A program made the position numbers and the translations under genes. From Bacteroidia bacterium (GTDB lineage: Bacteria; Bacteroidota; Bacteroidia; SpSt-205), in the NCBI GenBank assembly GCA_026413325.1, contig JANZYW010000009.1, positions 1 to 51,432 on the forward strand: DNA of 51,432 nt, in the 5' to 3' direction. This document shows positions 44,715-49,041 of the stretch, piece by piece; the first letter of the stretch is position 1; every line of letters begins with the position of its first letter. The notes under the pieces are model-generated. The model did no database searches. It was not told the origin of the DNA and worked only from the letters and a program-made list of their open reading frames with translations.

Positions 44715-45063
44715 AGTCGTTCTCTGTTTGGATTTGGCGAGAGAGAGGGCAAGCCATGTGCCAATCTCGGATCTCATGAGAATATGTCACATCAATCTGT
44801 CATGCTGACAAGCTGACCAGAAAGTCTTGACAGAGGAGAGTCGGAGGGGCCTCTTGGAAAATGCCTGGATCTCACCTGCAGCTAAGGATAGGGGCTAAGA
44901 AGTCTAAAAGGAGGAGCAGGGAATCGACGAGCTTCGGCCCCCCATCTTTTACCTCACCTGCTTGAGACGGTCGAGAAGGTGACTGAATAGAGTATTAGAC
45001 AGTAAGTAGATTTGAGGTGTAGTCGAGGGTGTGGGAACGGGTAGTAGGAGACTTTTCAGCTCT
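44715..45063. other. Intergenic region between groES and the first DUF4178 gene
   Basis: About 350 bp with divergent genes on both sides. It must hold the groESL promoter and leader on the minus side and the DUF4178 promoter on the plus side. Besides the short inverted repeat at 44798-44810 and a second TAnnTTTG match at 45007-45014 without a usable start at the right distance, I see no gene, tRNA or recognisable RNA. Confidence 0.45.
44798..44810. promoter_or_regulatory. TGTCA-TGC-TGACA inverted repeat upstream of groES
   Basis: A perfect 5-bp inverted repeat with 3-base spacer, 84-96 bp before the groES start, in the promoter region. It could be an operator for a heat-shock regulator; its length makes chance plausible. 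Confidence 0.25.
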
Positions 45064-45071
45064 TATCTTTG
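45064..45071 (+). promoter_or_regulatory. -7 box TATCTTTG of the DUF4178/aminopropyltransferase module
   Basis: Exact TAnnTTTG match ending 5 bases before GTG 45077. It lies within the 16-codon extension that a start at 45029 would give. Confidence 0.6.
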
Positions 45072-45076
45072 TGTAC

Positions 45077-45700
45077 GTGATTCTTTCAGAATCTCTGCGG
45101 TGCCCTTCGTGTGGAGCTCCAGTTCGTATTGAGCACCCGAGGGTTCGTATGTGTGTATGCAGCTATTGTGGGAGTGTATTGTGGTTCCGAGGGAGTCATC
45201 TTTCAGATACTGGCCAGCGGGCCACGCTTCTGGAGTATCCTTCCATTTTGCGGATAGGCGTGCAGGCGGAGCTGGATGGGATTTCTTTTCGTGTCATGGG
45301 AGTGCTGCAATATGCATATCGCCATGGCGTATGGGAGGAATGGCTGTTGTTGACGCCGGAAGGACGTATATACTGGCTGGAAGAAGACGAAGGAGAACTT
45401 ACTCTCTTCCGCAAGGAGCATTTGGTTGCCCCTATTCCTCCTTATCCCGAGATTAGGGTAGGAGATAGTCTTTCTGTGAATGGATTATCATTTTTTGTCG
45501 TAGAGAAGCGGAGAGCGATCATCCAAGGTGCCGCAGGGCAGCTTACCTTCACAGTCACACCGGGGACAGAGATCGCTTTCGTAGATGGGACAGCGAGAGA
45601 TGAAGTGTGTTCTATAGAGTTTTATCCAGAAGAGATAGAGCTTTGCAGAGGAAAGGTATTCTCCATAGATAAGCTTCATATTCTTTCCTCCAATGGCTGA
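45077..45700 (+). CDS. Zinc-ribbon DUF4178 protein (first of two)
   Basis: The 207-residue product opens with a zinc ribbon, Cys9-x2-Cys12 and Cys28-x2-Cys31 ('LRCPSCGAP' and 'CVCSYCGSV'). Two DUF4178-like beta units follow: the first around 'ISFRVMGVLQYAYRHGVWEEWLLLTPEG' with 'IYWLEEDEGELTLFR', the second from 'IRVGDSLSVNGLSFFVVE'. No membrane helix is present, so it should be cytosolic. DUF4178 genes are known to travel with DUF350 and aminopropyltransferase genes, as here; the molecular role is unknown. GTG 45077 is chosen from the -7 box. The next gene begins inside its last codons. Confidence 0.82.
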   Translation: MILSESLRCPSCGAPVRIEHPRVRMCVCSYCGSVLWFRGSHLSDTGQRATLLEYPSILRIGVQAELDGISFRVMGVLQYAYRHGVWEEWLLLTPEGRIYWLEEDEGELTLFRKEHLVAPIPPYPEIRVGDSLSVNGLSFFVVEKRRAIIQGAAGQLTFTVTPGTEIAFVDGTARDEVCSIEFYPEEIELCRGKVFSIDKLHILSSNG

Positions 45701-45890
45701 AGAGGGTCGAAATCGGTCTTTTCGGACAGCTTTCATAGGGTTCTTGTTGGCCCTGCTTTTCTACGGAGTAGTTGTAATCTTGTCCGCTTGGGGAGAGTCT
45801 TTTCCTAATTTATCCTCTGTGGCGCAGGCTGGAGCGAAGCCAGTACGACAGCAGGGGTCATCCCTCTTGCGTTCTACAAGGGGAAAATAA
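45693..45890 (+). CDS. Small single-helix membrane protein, 65 residues
   Basis: I know no family. The product has a charged N-terminus ('MAEEGRNRSFRT'), one hydrophobic helix at about 13-32 ('AFIGFLLALLFYGVVVILSAW') and a polar, basic tail. It starts 8 bp before the end of the first DUF4178 gene and lies before the DUF350 gene, so it is part of the module. In related clusters of other phyla a small DUF4247 protein sits in a similar place; I cannot show homology from sequence alone. Confidence 0.62.
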   Translation: MAEEGRNRSFRTAFIGFLLALLFYGVVVILSAWGESFPNLSSVAQAGAKPVRQQGSSLLRSTRGK

Positions 45891-45893
45891 GTC

Positions 45894-45901
45894 TATTTTT
45901 G
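45894..45901 (+). promoter_or_regulatory. -7 box TATTTTTG, internal promoter before the DUF350 gene
   Basis: Exact TAnnTTTG match ending 5 bases before ATG 45907, in the 16-bp gap after the one-helix gene. A TTG at 45867-45869 is 24 bases upstream, near the expected -33 position. Confidence 0.55.
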
Positions 45902-45906
45902 CTAAC

Positions 45907-46164
45907 ATGGCATTCTCCTTTTTATACCCTCTACAGGTAAACGCTTCTGCAGCTCGTTTGCTTAGTTGGGAAGAAATCGTAGCTACCTTTCTGTACGGGC
46001 TTATTGGCATCTTCCTCATGCTTCTGGGATATAAGCTATTTGACTGGATGACCCCCTTCAGCCTTTCTAAGCAGCTCTTGGAAGAAGAAAACATAGCGGT
46101 GGCGATCGTCGTTGCGGCGATCCTTATCGGGATCGCGCTCATTGTGATGCGCGTCATGGCATGA
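45907..46164 (+). CDS. DUF350 family membrane protein, 85 residues
   Basis: The product has two membrane helices ('IVATFLYGLIGIFLMLLGYKLFDW' and 'IAVAIVVAAILIGIALIVMRVM') joined by the DUF350-typical loop 'DWMTPFSLSKQLLEEENIAVAI'. DUF350 proteins (including YjfL) are inner-membrane proteins of unknown function, normally of two or four helices. This is a single-unit form. The stop overlaps the ATG of the second DUF4178 gene (ATGA), so the two are coupled, while the internal -7 box could allow separate control from the first DUF4178 gene. Confidence 0.86.
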   Translation: MAFSFLYPLQVNASAARLLSWEEIVATFLYGLIGIFLMLLGYKLFDWMTPFSLSKQLLEEENIAVAIVVAAILIGIALIVMRVMA

Positions 46165-47396
46165 CAGAAGGGAGCGTCCAGGCTGTAACCTGCCCTTCTT
46201 GCGGAGCGTCTGTTTCTCTTAGGGGAGAGGGGAAGAATCCTCTTTGGGTGTGTTCAGCTTGTAAGACCTTGGTTGATGTTTCCAGGGAGCCTTTCAGAGC
46301 GTTATCTCGAGCGGTTGAGCCTCCTACGGAGCTCCCTCCGAGCCCTCTTCAGGTGGGACAGGTTTTTTACTATCACGCACATAAGTATGAAATCGTCGGA
46401 CGGGTTGTGTACAAAAGCGCTGATGGGTACCTATGGCAAGAATGGTATCTGTTCTCCCCGAAAGCCAAGCCCCTTTGGCTCTCTGAGGCGGAAGGGGAAT
46501 ATTACCTTTTTCGGGGGGTATCTCCTCCAGAACAGTTTTCTTTATCGCAGGTACGACAGACAGGGCGCTTTCTTTCTCCTGCTGGTACTCTTCTCTACAT
46601 GGAGGAGGAAGGACAGGCAACCCCCGTCTATTTTGAAGGAGAGCTTCCTTTTCTTCCGAATACAGAGTCTTTTTTTCATTATTTAGATTTGTATACCGAA
46701 GATGGGAAAGTGGGCTATTCTGTGATATGGGATGAGGAGGAGATAGAGTTTTACAAAGGGCATATTTTCCAGTTACCCCCTTCATTACAAACCTCTAAGG
46801 GTAGAAAGCGTACCTTTCCTAAAAAATCGAGTTGGGTAGGAGTGGTTACGTACATGACCGGTTTCTATGTGGTCGTCGCGCTGGTCGGACTCATTTGGGT
46901 ACGTCACTGGCCCCAAAATACGAGAGGAATCCAGGTGGTGGCGCCGCTGCCTGCCTCTCCTCCGTTTCGAGTGGAGAGACGGGATACGCTCGTGATCCAC
47001 TCTCCGTGGAAGGTTTATGCTGTAAAAGCACGGATAGCTCCGTTGGTAGGCGCATTGGAGGACAGAGGCGACCTCTCCGTGCGCCTGTTTCGCTTCCCAA
47101 GCGAGGAAGTGTTGTTAGAAGGAACAGCTGAGCTTACATACGAGAGAGACTGCGATGAAGATGGCTGTTCCACAGTAGAGGTAGATTCGTGGGAGGGGGA
47201 GCTCCGCCTTGCAGCTAAGGATACCTTTATCGTGGAAGTAGAAGCAGAGCTCCACCCCGAAGCCGTTACCTCTGAGACTCGCCTGGAGGTATACCATGAT
47301 TTTTTCCCCCTCAGCCCACAACGTCTGCTCGGCTTCAGTGTGGGAGGTTTTTTTCTTCTGGTAGGGATCATGATAGTTTCTGTGTTTTTTCCTTGA
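46161..47396 (+). CDS. Membrane-anchored zinc-ribbon DUF4178 protein (second of two)
   Basis: The 411-residue product has a zinc ribbon (Cys11-x2-Cys14, Cys31-x2-Cys34) and a Pro-rich linker. A DUF4178 domain spans about 65-205 ('GQVFYYHAHKYEIVGRVVY', 'WQEWYLFSP', 'LWLSEAEGEYYLFR'), with a membrane helix at about 227-247. An approximately 140-residue domain between two helices, probably outside the cytosol, follows ('ERRDTLVIHSPWKVY', 'YERDCDEDGCSTVEVDSWEGEL'), then a last helix at about 390-410. The first DUF4178 gene lacks these membrane parts, so the pair is a soluble and an anchored version of one plan. The next gene is the aminopropyltransferase, 112 bp on. Confidence 0.82.
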   Translation: MTEGSVQAVTCPSCGASVSLRGEGKNPLWVCSACKTLVDVSREPFRALSRAVEPPTELPPSPLQVGQVFYYHAHKYEIVGRVVYKSADGYLWQEWYLFSPKAKPLWLSEAEGEYYLFRGVSPPEQFSLSQVRQTGRFLSPAGTLLYMEEEGQATPVYFEGELPFLPNTESFFHYLDLYTEDGKVGYSVIWDEEEIEFYKGHIFQLPPSLQTSKGRKRTFPKKSSWVGVVTYMTGFYVVVALVGLIWVRHWPQNTRGIQVVAPLPASPPFRVERRDTLVIHSPWKVYAVKARIAPLVGALEDRGDLSVRLFRFPSEEVLLEGTAELTYERDCDEDGCSTVEVDSWEGELRLAAKDTFIVEVEAELHPEAVTSETRLEVYHDFFPLSPQRLLGFSVGGFFLLVGIMIVSVFFP

Positions 47397-47496
47397 ACGG
47401 TACCTATCGGTAGGAAAAGCAAGATATAGGGGGTGATAGGTGTCCAGCGGATAGCTTAGAGAAATGGGGGCCCTTCTCTTCTGACTGGGAGCGTTT

Positions 47497-47504
47497 TACT
47501 TTTA
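47497..47504 (+). promoter_or_regulatory. -7 box TACTTTTA of the aminopropyltransferase gene
   Basis: One mismatch to TAnnTTTG (final G is A). It ends 4 bases before GTG 47509. Confidence 0.42.
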
Positions 47505-47508
47505 GTTT

Positions 47509-49041
47509 GTGCGGGGTATGAGAGAAGTAGAACGATTCAAGCCTTTTTTTCTACTTGTCAGCATATTCTTCATAGCTACCTGTGGTATATTCTACGAGCT
47601 GCTGCTAAGTGCGCTGAGTTCGTATTTGGTGGGGGATACGGTGCTTCATTTCTCGCTTGTGATAGGATTTTTCCTTTCTGCGATGGGCTTAGGGGCTTTC
47701 TTATCCAGACAGATTCAACGGAGGCTGCTCCAGAGCTTTGTCATGATAGAGCTGGTTATCGCCGGGGTAGGAGGATGGAGTGGGGTGGCGCTTTTTGGGG
47801 GCTATCTTTTTTTCTCCAATCTTCTCCCCCTTCTTTTGGGGCTGGTCGTGCTCTTAGGCACCCTTATAGGGATGGAGCTTCCCCTCCTACTTCGGATTTT
47901 TGAAAGTTTTGGTCCGCTGCGATTGACGGTATCGGCGGTGCTCACCGCAGATTACATCGGGGCTCTCTTTGCTTCCCTTCTCTTTCCTCTCTTTTTCCTA
48001 CCCGAAATGGGTTTTATTCAGTCCTCCTTTTTTTTCGGAGGGGTTAATGCACTCGTAGCGCTGGTGAATCTCTACCTTTTCGCCTCGGAGATAGCGGTGG
48101 TTTGGCTAAAGCCAGTAGCGTGGGGTGTCACATGCATGCTTTTGGTTATGATTCCTTTTTCTTCGGCTTTCACGGGGCAATTCGATAAAATGCTCTATGA
48201 AGACGAGATCATTTTTTCTCGTCAATCGTCGTATCAACGTATCGTGCTGACCCGGCACAAGGAACGCGTGAACCTGTATCTAAATGGAAATCTTCAGTTC
48301 TCTTCAGTAGATGAATACCGCTATCATGAAGTTTTAGTGCATCCTGCGATGGGATTACTTTTGAATCGACAAAAGGTACTTATTGGGGGAGGGGGAGATG
48401 GCTTGGCTTTACGAGAGATACTCAAATACCCAGAGGTAGAACGGGTAGTTCTGGTGGAGTTGGACAGTGCAGTCGTCACGTTGGCACGCGATAATCCAGT
48501 GATGCGTCAGCTCAACCGAGCGGCCTTTCTTGATCCGCGAGTCGAGGTAGTTATACAAGATGCCAAGAGATATATCCGTGAATCGAGCGAGCTATTTAAT
48601 CTGATTGTTTTAGACTTCCCTGACCCCAGTACAGTGGAGCTGGCTCAACTATTTACCAAGACACTGTATATGCAGCTGAGATATCTGCTGGCTCATGATG
48701 GGCTCCTTGTCGTTCAGGCAACTTCTCCCTACTACACTCCTCGGGCATTCTGGTGTATAGAAGAGACTCTAAGAGAGGCAGGATATTACACCCTACCCCT
48801 TCACGTGTATGTACCTTCCTTTGGAGAATGGGGATTTATCGTAGCGAGTCCTTATACAAGGCAGTCATGGAAGAGGTTGCGGAAGGAAATGGTGCAGACA
48901 AAGTTCTACCGTCCTGACCGTATCTATAGCTTGAGCGATTTCCCTGGCGACCTTTTGCCTTCGGAGAAGGTTGAAGCCAACACGCTCGAGACTTTACAGT
49001 TGCTGCACTACTACCGTGAGGATTGGAAGGCTTGGGAGTAG
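47509..49041 (+). CDS. Membrane-integrated polyamine aminopropyltransferase-like protein (spermidine-synthase fold)
   Basis: The 510-residue product has about seven N-terminal membrane helices (residues 12-220) fused to a spermidine-synthase-type SAM-binding domain. Visible motifs are 'SSVDEYRYHEVLVHPAM' (265-281, the conserved substrate-loop region), 'VLIGGGGDGLALRE' (Gly-rich SAM site, about 291-303), 'VVLVELDSAVV' (ribose-binding acidic residues), 'IQDAKRYI' and 'IVLDFPDPS'. In soluble SpeE the last motif usually reads 'DSTDP', so this one is variant. It would transfer an aminopropyl group from decarboxylated SAM to an amine, or act on another nucleophile, at the membrane. No SAM decarboxylase gene is in the window. 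GTG 47509 is chosen from the -7 box; ATG 47518 is the alternative. Confidence 0.87.
   Translation: MRGMREVERFKPFFLLVSIFFIATCGIFYELLLSALSSYLVGDTVLHFSLVIGFFLSAMGLGAFLSRQIQRRLLQSFVMIELVIAGVGGWSGVALFGGYLFFSNLLPLLLGLVVLLGTLIGMELPLLLRIFESFGPLRLTVSAVLTADYIGALFASLLFPLFFLPEMGFIQSSFFFGGVNALVALVNLYLFASEIAVVWLKPVAWGVTCMLLVMIPFSSAFTGQFDKMLYEDEIIFSRQSSYQRIVLTRHKERVNLYLNGNLQFSSVDEYRYHEVLVHPAMGLLLNRQKVLIGGGGDGLALREILKYPEVERVVLVELDSAVVTLARDNPVMRQLNRAAFLDPRVEVVIQDAKRYIRESSELFNLIVLDFPDPSTVELAQLFTKTLYMQLRYLLAHDGLLVVQATSPYYTPRAFWCIEETLREAGYYTLPLHVYVPSFGEWGFIVASPYTRQSWKRLRKEMVQTKFYRPDRIYSLSDFPGDLLPSEKVEANTLETLQLLHYYREDWKAWE

Follow-up and report, generated by a model that had tools for sequence, protein, structure and literature searches.

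The window (the whole stretch of DNA that was analysed, 51,432 nucleotides) is an entire contig of a 2.19 Mb genome which is 99% complete. On its + strand, a row of five genes extends from 45029 to 49041 (Table 1). The five genes in a row announced by the earlier note were all recovered in the reading of the open reading frames (ORFs), each of them present and correctly placed, and four are supported by Pfam or NCBIfam.

Table 1. Features of the five-gene row, in window positions.
Feature	Positions	Strand	Description
DUF4178 a	45029..45700	+	223 aa; PF13785 E=3.4e-15; zinc ribbon CxxC...CxxC (CPSC...CSYC, by eye)
One-helix protein	45693..45890	+	65 aa; N-terminal TM, tail ...KPVRQQGSSLLRSTRGK ending in lysine; proposed acceptor
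C-terminal lysine codon AAA of one-helix protein	45885..45887	+	TAA stop immediately after
DUF350, half-size	45907..46164	+	85 aa, 2 TM; PF03994 E=5.4e-15, positions 3-65 of 133 (half of model)
DUF4178 b	46161..47396	+	411 aa; PF13785 E=9.5e-14; zinc ribbon; two TMs
7TM-aminopropyltransferase (APT)	47509..49041	+	510 aa; PF01564 E=3e-35; NF002956 605 bits

DUF4178 a, the start of which is uncertain (GTG at 45029, 45071 or 45077), consists of a zinc ribbon and a DUF4178 domain, with no convincing transmembrane (TM) anchor. The one-helix protein, which ends in RGK, gave no significant match in Pfam and NCBIfam searches. In DUF4178 b, the zinc ribbon and DUF4178 domain are followed by a TM segment (~224-249), a beta-rich domain and a C-terminal TM segment (~394-409). 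Residues 11-210 of its AlphaFold model show mostly a pLDDT of ~90; Foldseek returned no usable PDB match for the DUF4178 model (best TM-scores ~0.2), and a sequence search for solved relatives of DUF4178 or DUF350 gave nothing significant. The APT, with an alternative start at ATG 47518, has seven TM segments and then a spermidine-synthase-fold domain (~230-510). The ATG at 45693 precedes the stop of DUF4178 a at 45700, and an ATGA is found at 46161 (46161-46164); these start/stop overlaps suggest that the genes concerned may be translationally coupled. A scan of the window with Rfam gave no matches, and a promoter/terminator scan gave no excess over shuffled sequence.

Upstream of the module, on the opposite strand, lie groES and groEL. 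Contamination of the contig is unlikely, because this adjoining GroEL shares 96% identity with the GroEL of congeners. In a comparison aimed at an empty site, the groESL surroundings proved not to be syntenic within the genus. On the - strand, a protein of 89 aa encoded at positions 49052-49321 matches nothing in Pfam or NCBIfam; in congener G005 its homologues form a tandem of three genes (L046:548-1900; 51-73% identity).

Related operons and their layouts

By profile search, DUF4178 was absent from all 10 congeners; domain searches of the same genomes found no AdoMet decarboxylase (SpeD) either, and no Spermine_synth domain except for one weak match in G005. In the phylum sample, DUF4178 was present in 18 of 395 genomes. 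A search with an APT alignment yielded 80 named loci across many phyla, including Gammaproteobacteria, Campylobacterota, Acidobacteria, Myxococcota, Chitinophaga and other Bacteroidota, Planctomycetota, Leptospiraceae, Elusimicrobia, Nitrospirae and others. When the loci were annotated with profiles built during the analysis, two layouts emerged. Type A corresponds to the operon already in print: it often includes PspA, and it has a short DUF4178 protein, a lipoprotein or small protein, an 8TM DUF350 and the APT. In the compact type B, a single zinc-ribbon DUF4178 protein or two of them are combined with a 2TM DUF350 and the APT, usually also with SpeD and in many cases with an FAD amine oxidase. 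The building block of DUF350 is a 2TM unit, which occurs once in type B and as four repeats (8TM) in type A. SpeD was found near the operon in 64 of 90 loci, and an exported amine oxidase in 62 of 90. In several type B operons (L048:12363-13463; L105, L106, L107) the oxidase is followed by a 5-8TM protein; that of L048, the only member searched, had no significant Pfam or NCBIfam match. Operons L106 and L107 come from genomes of the same class and, in their layout as well as their tail, are closely like the Chryseobacterium operon L164, which would make Bacteroidota the probable phylum of this genome.

The complete DUF4178 loci examined hold the same components together, so their adjacency is beyond chance; the association of DUF4178, DUF350 and aminopropyltransferases, which the earlier note had taken as known from other phyla, is indeed in print (Ravi et al. 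2024, PMC11237479). That paper describes the operon, predicts a link with membrane dynamics and mentions 'aminopropylation of other substrates' with reference to Li et al. 2019; its accessible passages contain no mention of lysine-ended tails. Its PspA-CesT/Tir operon (7TM-spermine synthase, DUF350, DUF4178 and the Ctha_1186 lipoprotein) shares with the window operon the 7TM-APT, DUF350, DUF4178 and the membrane context, with DUF4178 and the 7TM-APT standing together in both. The window operon differs by a DUF350 of 2TM rather than 8TM, by a one-helix protein in place of the lipoprotein and by its two zinc-ribbon DUF4178 proteins. No match to PspA was obtained among the neighbouring ORFs of the window; the PspA of this genome is elsewhere (G000:C43).

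The window operon belongs to type B, since it comprises a zinc-ribbon DUF4178 pair, a 2TM DUF350, the 7TM-APT and a lysine-ended one-helix protein. It departs from the usual type B in that DUF4178 b is relocated behind DUF350, and neither SpeD nor an exported amine oxidase is found near it. The soluble/anchored pair of DUF4178 proteins, which had been singled out as a special duplication, is rather the commonest state: 90 related operons include 37 split pairs, 19 fused tandems and 21 single proteins, that is, a pair or tandem in 56 of 90. Li and co-workers reportedly described, in 2019, clusters of SpeD, a membrane-protein/spermidine-synthase fusion and DUF350, and are said to have identified no protein acceptor. 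Those clusters have in common with the present one the enzyme family and the idea of an aminopropylated substrate other than putrescine, but this genome is without SpeD.

Large plasmids of Novosphingobium, Tritonibacter, Ensifer, Burkholderia, Gemmatirosa and Alteromonas (L197-L202) also carry such APT operons, which suggests that they are mobile. In the APT tree, the enzyme of the window occupies an isolated position, and the tree singles out no source lineage for the acquired module.

Lysine-ended tail proteins

Most type B operons contain, between DUF4178 and DUF350, an ORF of 45-85 aa with one TM segment and a tail rich in Ser, Gly, Arg, His and Tyr, the last residue of which is lysine. 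Its counterpart in the window is the one-helix protein, listed in the earlier note with no interpretation. Tail ORFs were chosen by fixed criteria after small-ORF calling with permissive starts. All 90 DUF4178+APT loci, which come from many phyla and include some close relatives and two ORFs chosen again by hand (L120, L136), have an anchored one-helix protein or lipoprotein with a tail ending exactly in lysine. The last two residues were GK in 49 cases, HK in 40 and VK in one. Under the same criteria, any other last residue was obtained in at most 20 of the 90 loci (the next best being E, 20/90); when G, H or F was required as the penultimate residue, the count was 89 for K versus at most 3 for any other. 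Six plasmid loci fetched once the rule was set all showed the lysine ending (Novosphingobium, Alteromonas, Tritonibacter, Gemmatirosa, Burkholderia, and Ensifer, where DUF4178 was not found). No lysine-ended tail protein was present in nine APT loci without DUF4178.

The tails are otherwise dissimilar, with a median pairwise identity of 12.5% and 57 clusters at 50%, and no other position comes near the conservation of the last two residues. The lysine ending is common to anchors as varied as one-helix proteins, lipoproteins of ~240 aa and a 510-aa lipoprotein of Alteromonas; the type A lipoprotein ends in GK. The HK ending persists in L109, where small protein and DUF4178 b form a single fused protein, and in L160 there are two copies of the small protein, both ending in YYHK. 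Judged from flank charge, the one-helix protein is oriented N-in/C-out in 39 loci versus 14. Genome G364 has both an APT locus with a lysine-ended protein (L100) and a PspA-DUF4178-SpeD locus without APT, which is also without a lysine-ended protein (L101).

The aminopropyltransferase and its donor

The AlphaFold model of the APT has a pLDDT of 91.5 and was matched by Foldseek to 1uir, 7xif and 6bq2, the closest solved folds being polyamine APTs. The spermidine-synthase fold carries the GGGDG, D319, D351 and D-x-P-D-P residues, and every homologue in the alignment retains the residues of the donor site and of catalysis. The PDP of DFPDPS is invariant in 99 aligned homologues, so this sequence is not the variant catalytic loop that it had been taken for. 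The presence or absence of the DUF4178 module makes no difference to the active-site residues. An active-site switch was considered as the cause of the operons lacking SpeD and rejected, no change being seen at the motif columns. L119, L122 and L165, APT relatives from the same region of the tree, are without module and tail, so the family may have other acceptors.

Concerning topology, the K+R content of alternate loops was 10.3 versus 2.6 (30 APTs), from which the APT is predicted to be N-in, with seven TM segments and the catalytic domain outside the membrane. The amine oxidases bear Tat-like signals, with the strict motif in 33 of 58 and RK-type variants in the others. Together, the predicted position of the APT catalytic domain, the C-out tail, the lipoproteins of type A and the Tat-like oxidase lead us to infer that the chemistry would be extracytoplasmic, modification of the tail before export being also possible. 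We know of no precedent for the donor outside the cytosol that an extracytoplasmic active site would need.

With respect to the donor, no PF02675 match was obtained in this genome by profile search, a result in which the 99% completeness does not fully exclude a gap; the class-2 decarboxylase PF01536 gave only a non-significant E=0.32, and the AdoMet decarboxylase motif pattern had no exact match. Of the 20 genomes with DUF4178 that were reached in the phylum, 19 have SpeD, the sole exception being this one. Beyond it, 18 named genomes lack SpeD near the module and 11 of them have it elsewhere; PF02675 is absent from five genomes of Campylobacterota, one of Elusimicrobia and one deltaproteobacterial genome, so the form of the module without SpeD recurs. 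The deltaproteobacterial genome has a class-2 fragment, and the other six, all with the module, showed neither PF02675 nor a significant PF01536. The members without SpeD are not a single clade in the APT tree. Because the five Campylobacterota are also without SpeD, it is less likely that the gene is missing here through assembly loss alone. With SpeD undetected, decarboxylated AdoMet is no obvious donor in these genomes.

Proposed tail modification and alternative roles of the terminal lysine

YjfC and YgiC of E. coli are reported to be peptide-spermidine ligases (Pederick 2023, as cited in PMC12270671). Their neighbours YjfM and YgiB (RefSeq names) end in GG, and so does the tail protein in 8 of 8 ligase operons, a small sample made up of the two from E. 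coli and those of Vibrio, Rhizobium, Sulfitobacter, Pseudomonas fluorescens pQBR103, Deinococcus and Arthrobacter. At an Azospirillum ligase locus no tail gene was recognisable. The YgiC/YjfC operons (E. coli yjfI-yjfC, ygiBC), in which DUF1190 and DUF350 accompany the ligase, have in common with the APT operons DUF350 (yjf-type), polyamine chemistry and an exported protein with a Ser/Gly/Arg-rich C-terminal tail, but they combine an ATP-grasp ligase with a GG end, whereas the APT operons combine an APT with a (G/H)K end. Pfam found no ATP-grasp domain in the five proteins of the window. A ligase requires a free carboxylate, and an APT requires an amine. The tail ending thus fits the chemistry of the enzyme, carboxylate for GG and amine for K, and this agreement is the main argument for considering the tail as the substrate in both systems.

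On balance, and with moderate confidence, we interpret the operon as a probable membrane-bound protein-aminopropylation system, in which the APT would modify the terminal lysine of the one-helix tail. The 7TM-APT would move the aminopropyl group from decarboxylated AdoMet onto that lysine, at the end of a disordered tail. Since the lysine side chain is a butylamine and resembles putrescine, the likely product would be N-epsilon-(3-aminopropyl)lysine, with which the tail would finish in a cationic, spermidine-like group. The membrane assembly that presents tail and donor could consist of DUF350 together with the two zinc-ribbon DUF4178 proteins. In most relatives SpeD would supply the donor, and a possible task of the exported FAD amine oxidase is to process the product; if the active site is outside, the transporter-like 7TM domain or DUF350 could move donor or product. 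The proposal of the earlier note, a membrane system acting on a lipid or protein rather than on free putrescine, fits this evidence, with the terminal lysine as the protein candidate, but the two reasons offered for it, the DUF4178 duplication and the variant loop, fail.

A parallel, with no homology claimed, is found in the polyamine-lysines of silaffins and the hypusine of eIF5A, where the lysine epsilon-amine bears an aminoalkyl chain. These are eukaryotic (and archaeal) proteins, and hypusine carries an aminobutyl group and is made by an unrelated enzyme. Aminopropyl-lysine occurs in diatom silaffins (PMC4557024). The texts that could be searched, among which Li 2019 and Pederick 2023 were not, contained no suggestion that the C-terminus of a protein is the acceptor. 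The association of the genes is already known; what appears to be new is the lysine-ended tail as likely acceptor, together with its counterpart in ligase operons.

More tentatively, and slightly inclined to doubt it, we consider that many phyla may possess a dedicated aminopropylation of the C-terminal lysine of exported, anchored tails, possibly extracytoplasmic, which would converge with the ATP-grasp ligases adding spermidine to GG tails, so that the capping of protein C-termini with polyamines would be a general modification of the envelope; a subset without SpeD, including this genome, would use another donor or source.

The terminal lysine would also suit other roles. The tail could be a recognition or docking signal, bound for instance by DUF4178 or the APT, with a lipid, a polyamine or some other component of the envelope as the substrate of the APT; the tail does accompany the DUF4178/DUF350 module and is missing from APTs without DUF4178, and the active-site residues are identical in both groups. 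Nevertheless, this seems rather unlikely, because conservation confined to the last one or two residues of dissimilar tails is more acceptor-like than docking-like, and the ligase operons alter precisely those terminal residues, to GG.

Braun's lipoprotein also ends in lysine and is linked through its epsilon-amine to peptidoglycan by an L,D-transpeptidase. The lysine of the tails, predicted to be outside the membrane and in many relatives encoded near a Tat-type amine oxidase, might similarly be a covalent attachment point to peptidoglycan or another polymer, used by enzymes from outside the operon, with the polyamine enzymes as mere partners. It is quite improbable, given that the APT is the universal partner and that the GG ends of the ligase operons offer no lysine to link.

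A third possibility is that the module of this genome is a stranded acquisition, idle or drifting after the loss of SpeD and amine oxidase. Its absence from all 10 congeners, the lack of SpeD, the rearranged gene order and the isolated APT would agree with this, but five open frames with overlapping start and stop codons, intact zinc-ribbon, catalytic and terminal-lysine residues, and the five Campylobacterota that likewise retain the module without SpeD make it very improbable. That the enzyme is an ordinary spermidine or thermospermine synthase, membrane-bound by happenstance, is hardly credible, despite its NCBIfam name (polyamine aminopropyltransferase) and its nearest solved folds, in view of the lack of SpeD here, of congeners without SpeD or (the weak match in G005 apart) Spermine_synth, of the strict coupling of APT and tail protein, and of the opinion in print that the fusion has a different substrate (Li 2019, as cited in PMC11237479).

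Aminopropylation of the terminal lysine, if true, would be a new bacterial protein modification, would give a role to the DUF350/DUF4178/PspA envelope-stress operons and would explain the GG-ended tails beside peptide-spermidine ligases, while the cases without SpeD would point to another donor. The substrate of the membrane APT is a question already raised in print, and the invariant terminal lysine makes it directly testable.

A minor observation concerns an Arthrobacter plasmid gene located beside an ATP-grasp ligase (L208:2876-3379): it is annotated as a tRNA-dihydrouridine synthase, its product has a Ser/Gly-rich GG tail, and it may be misannotated.
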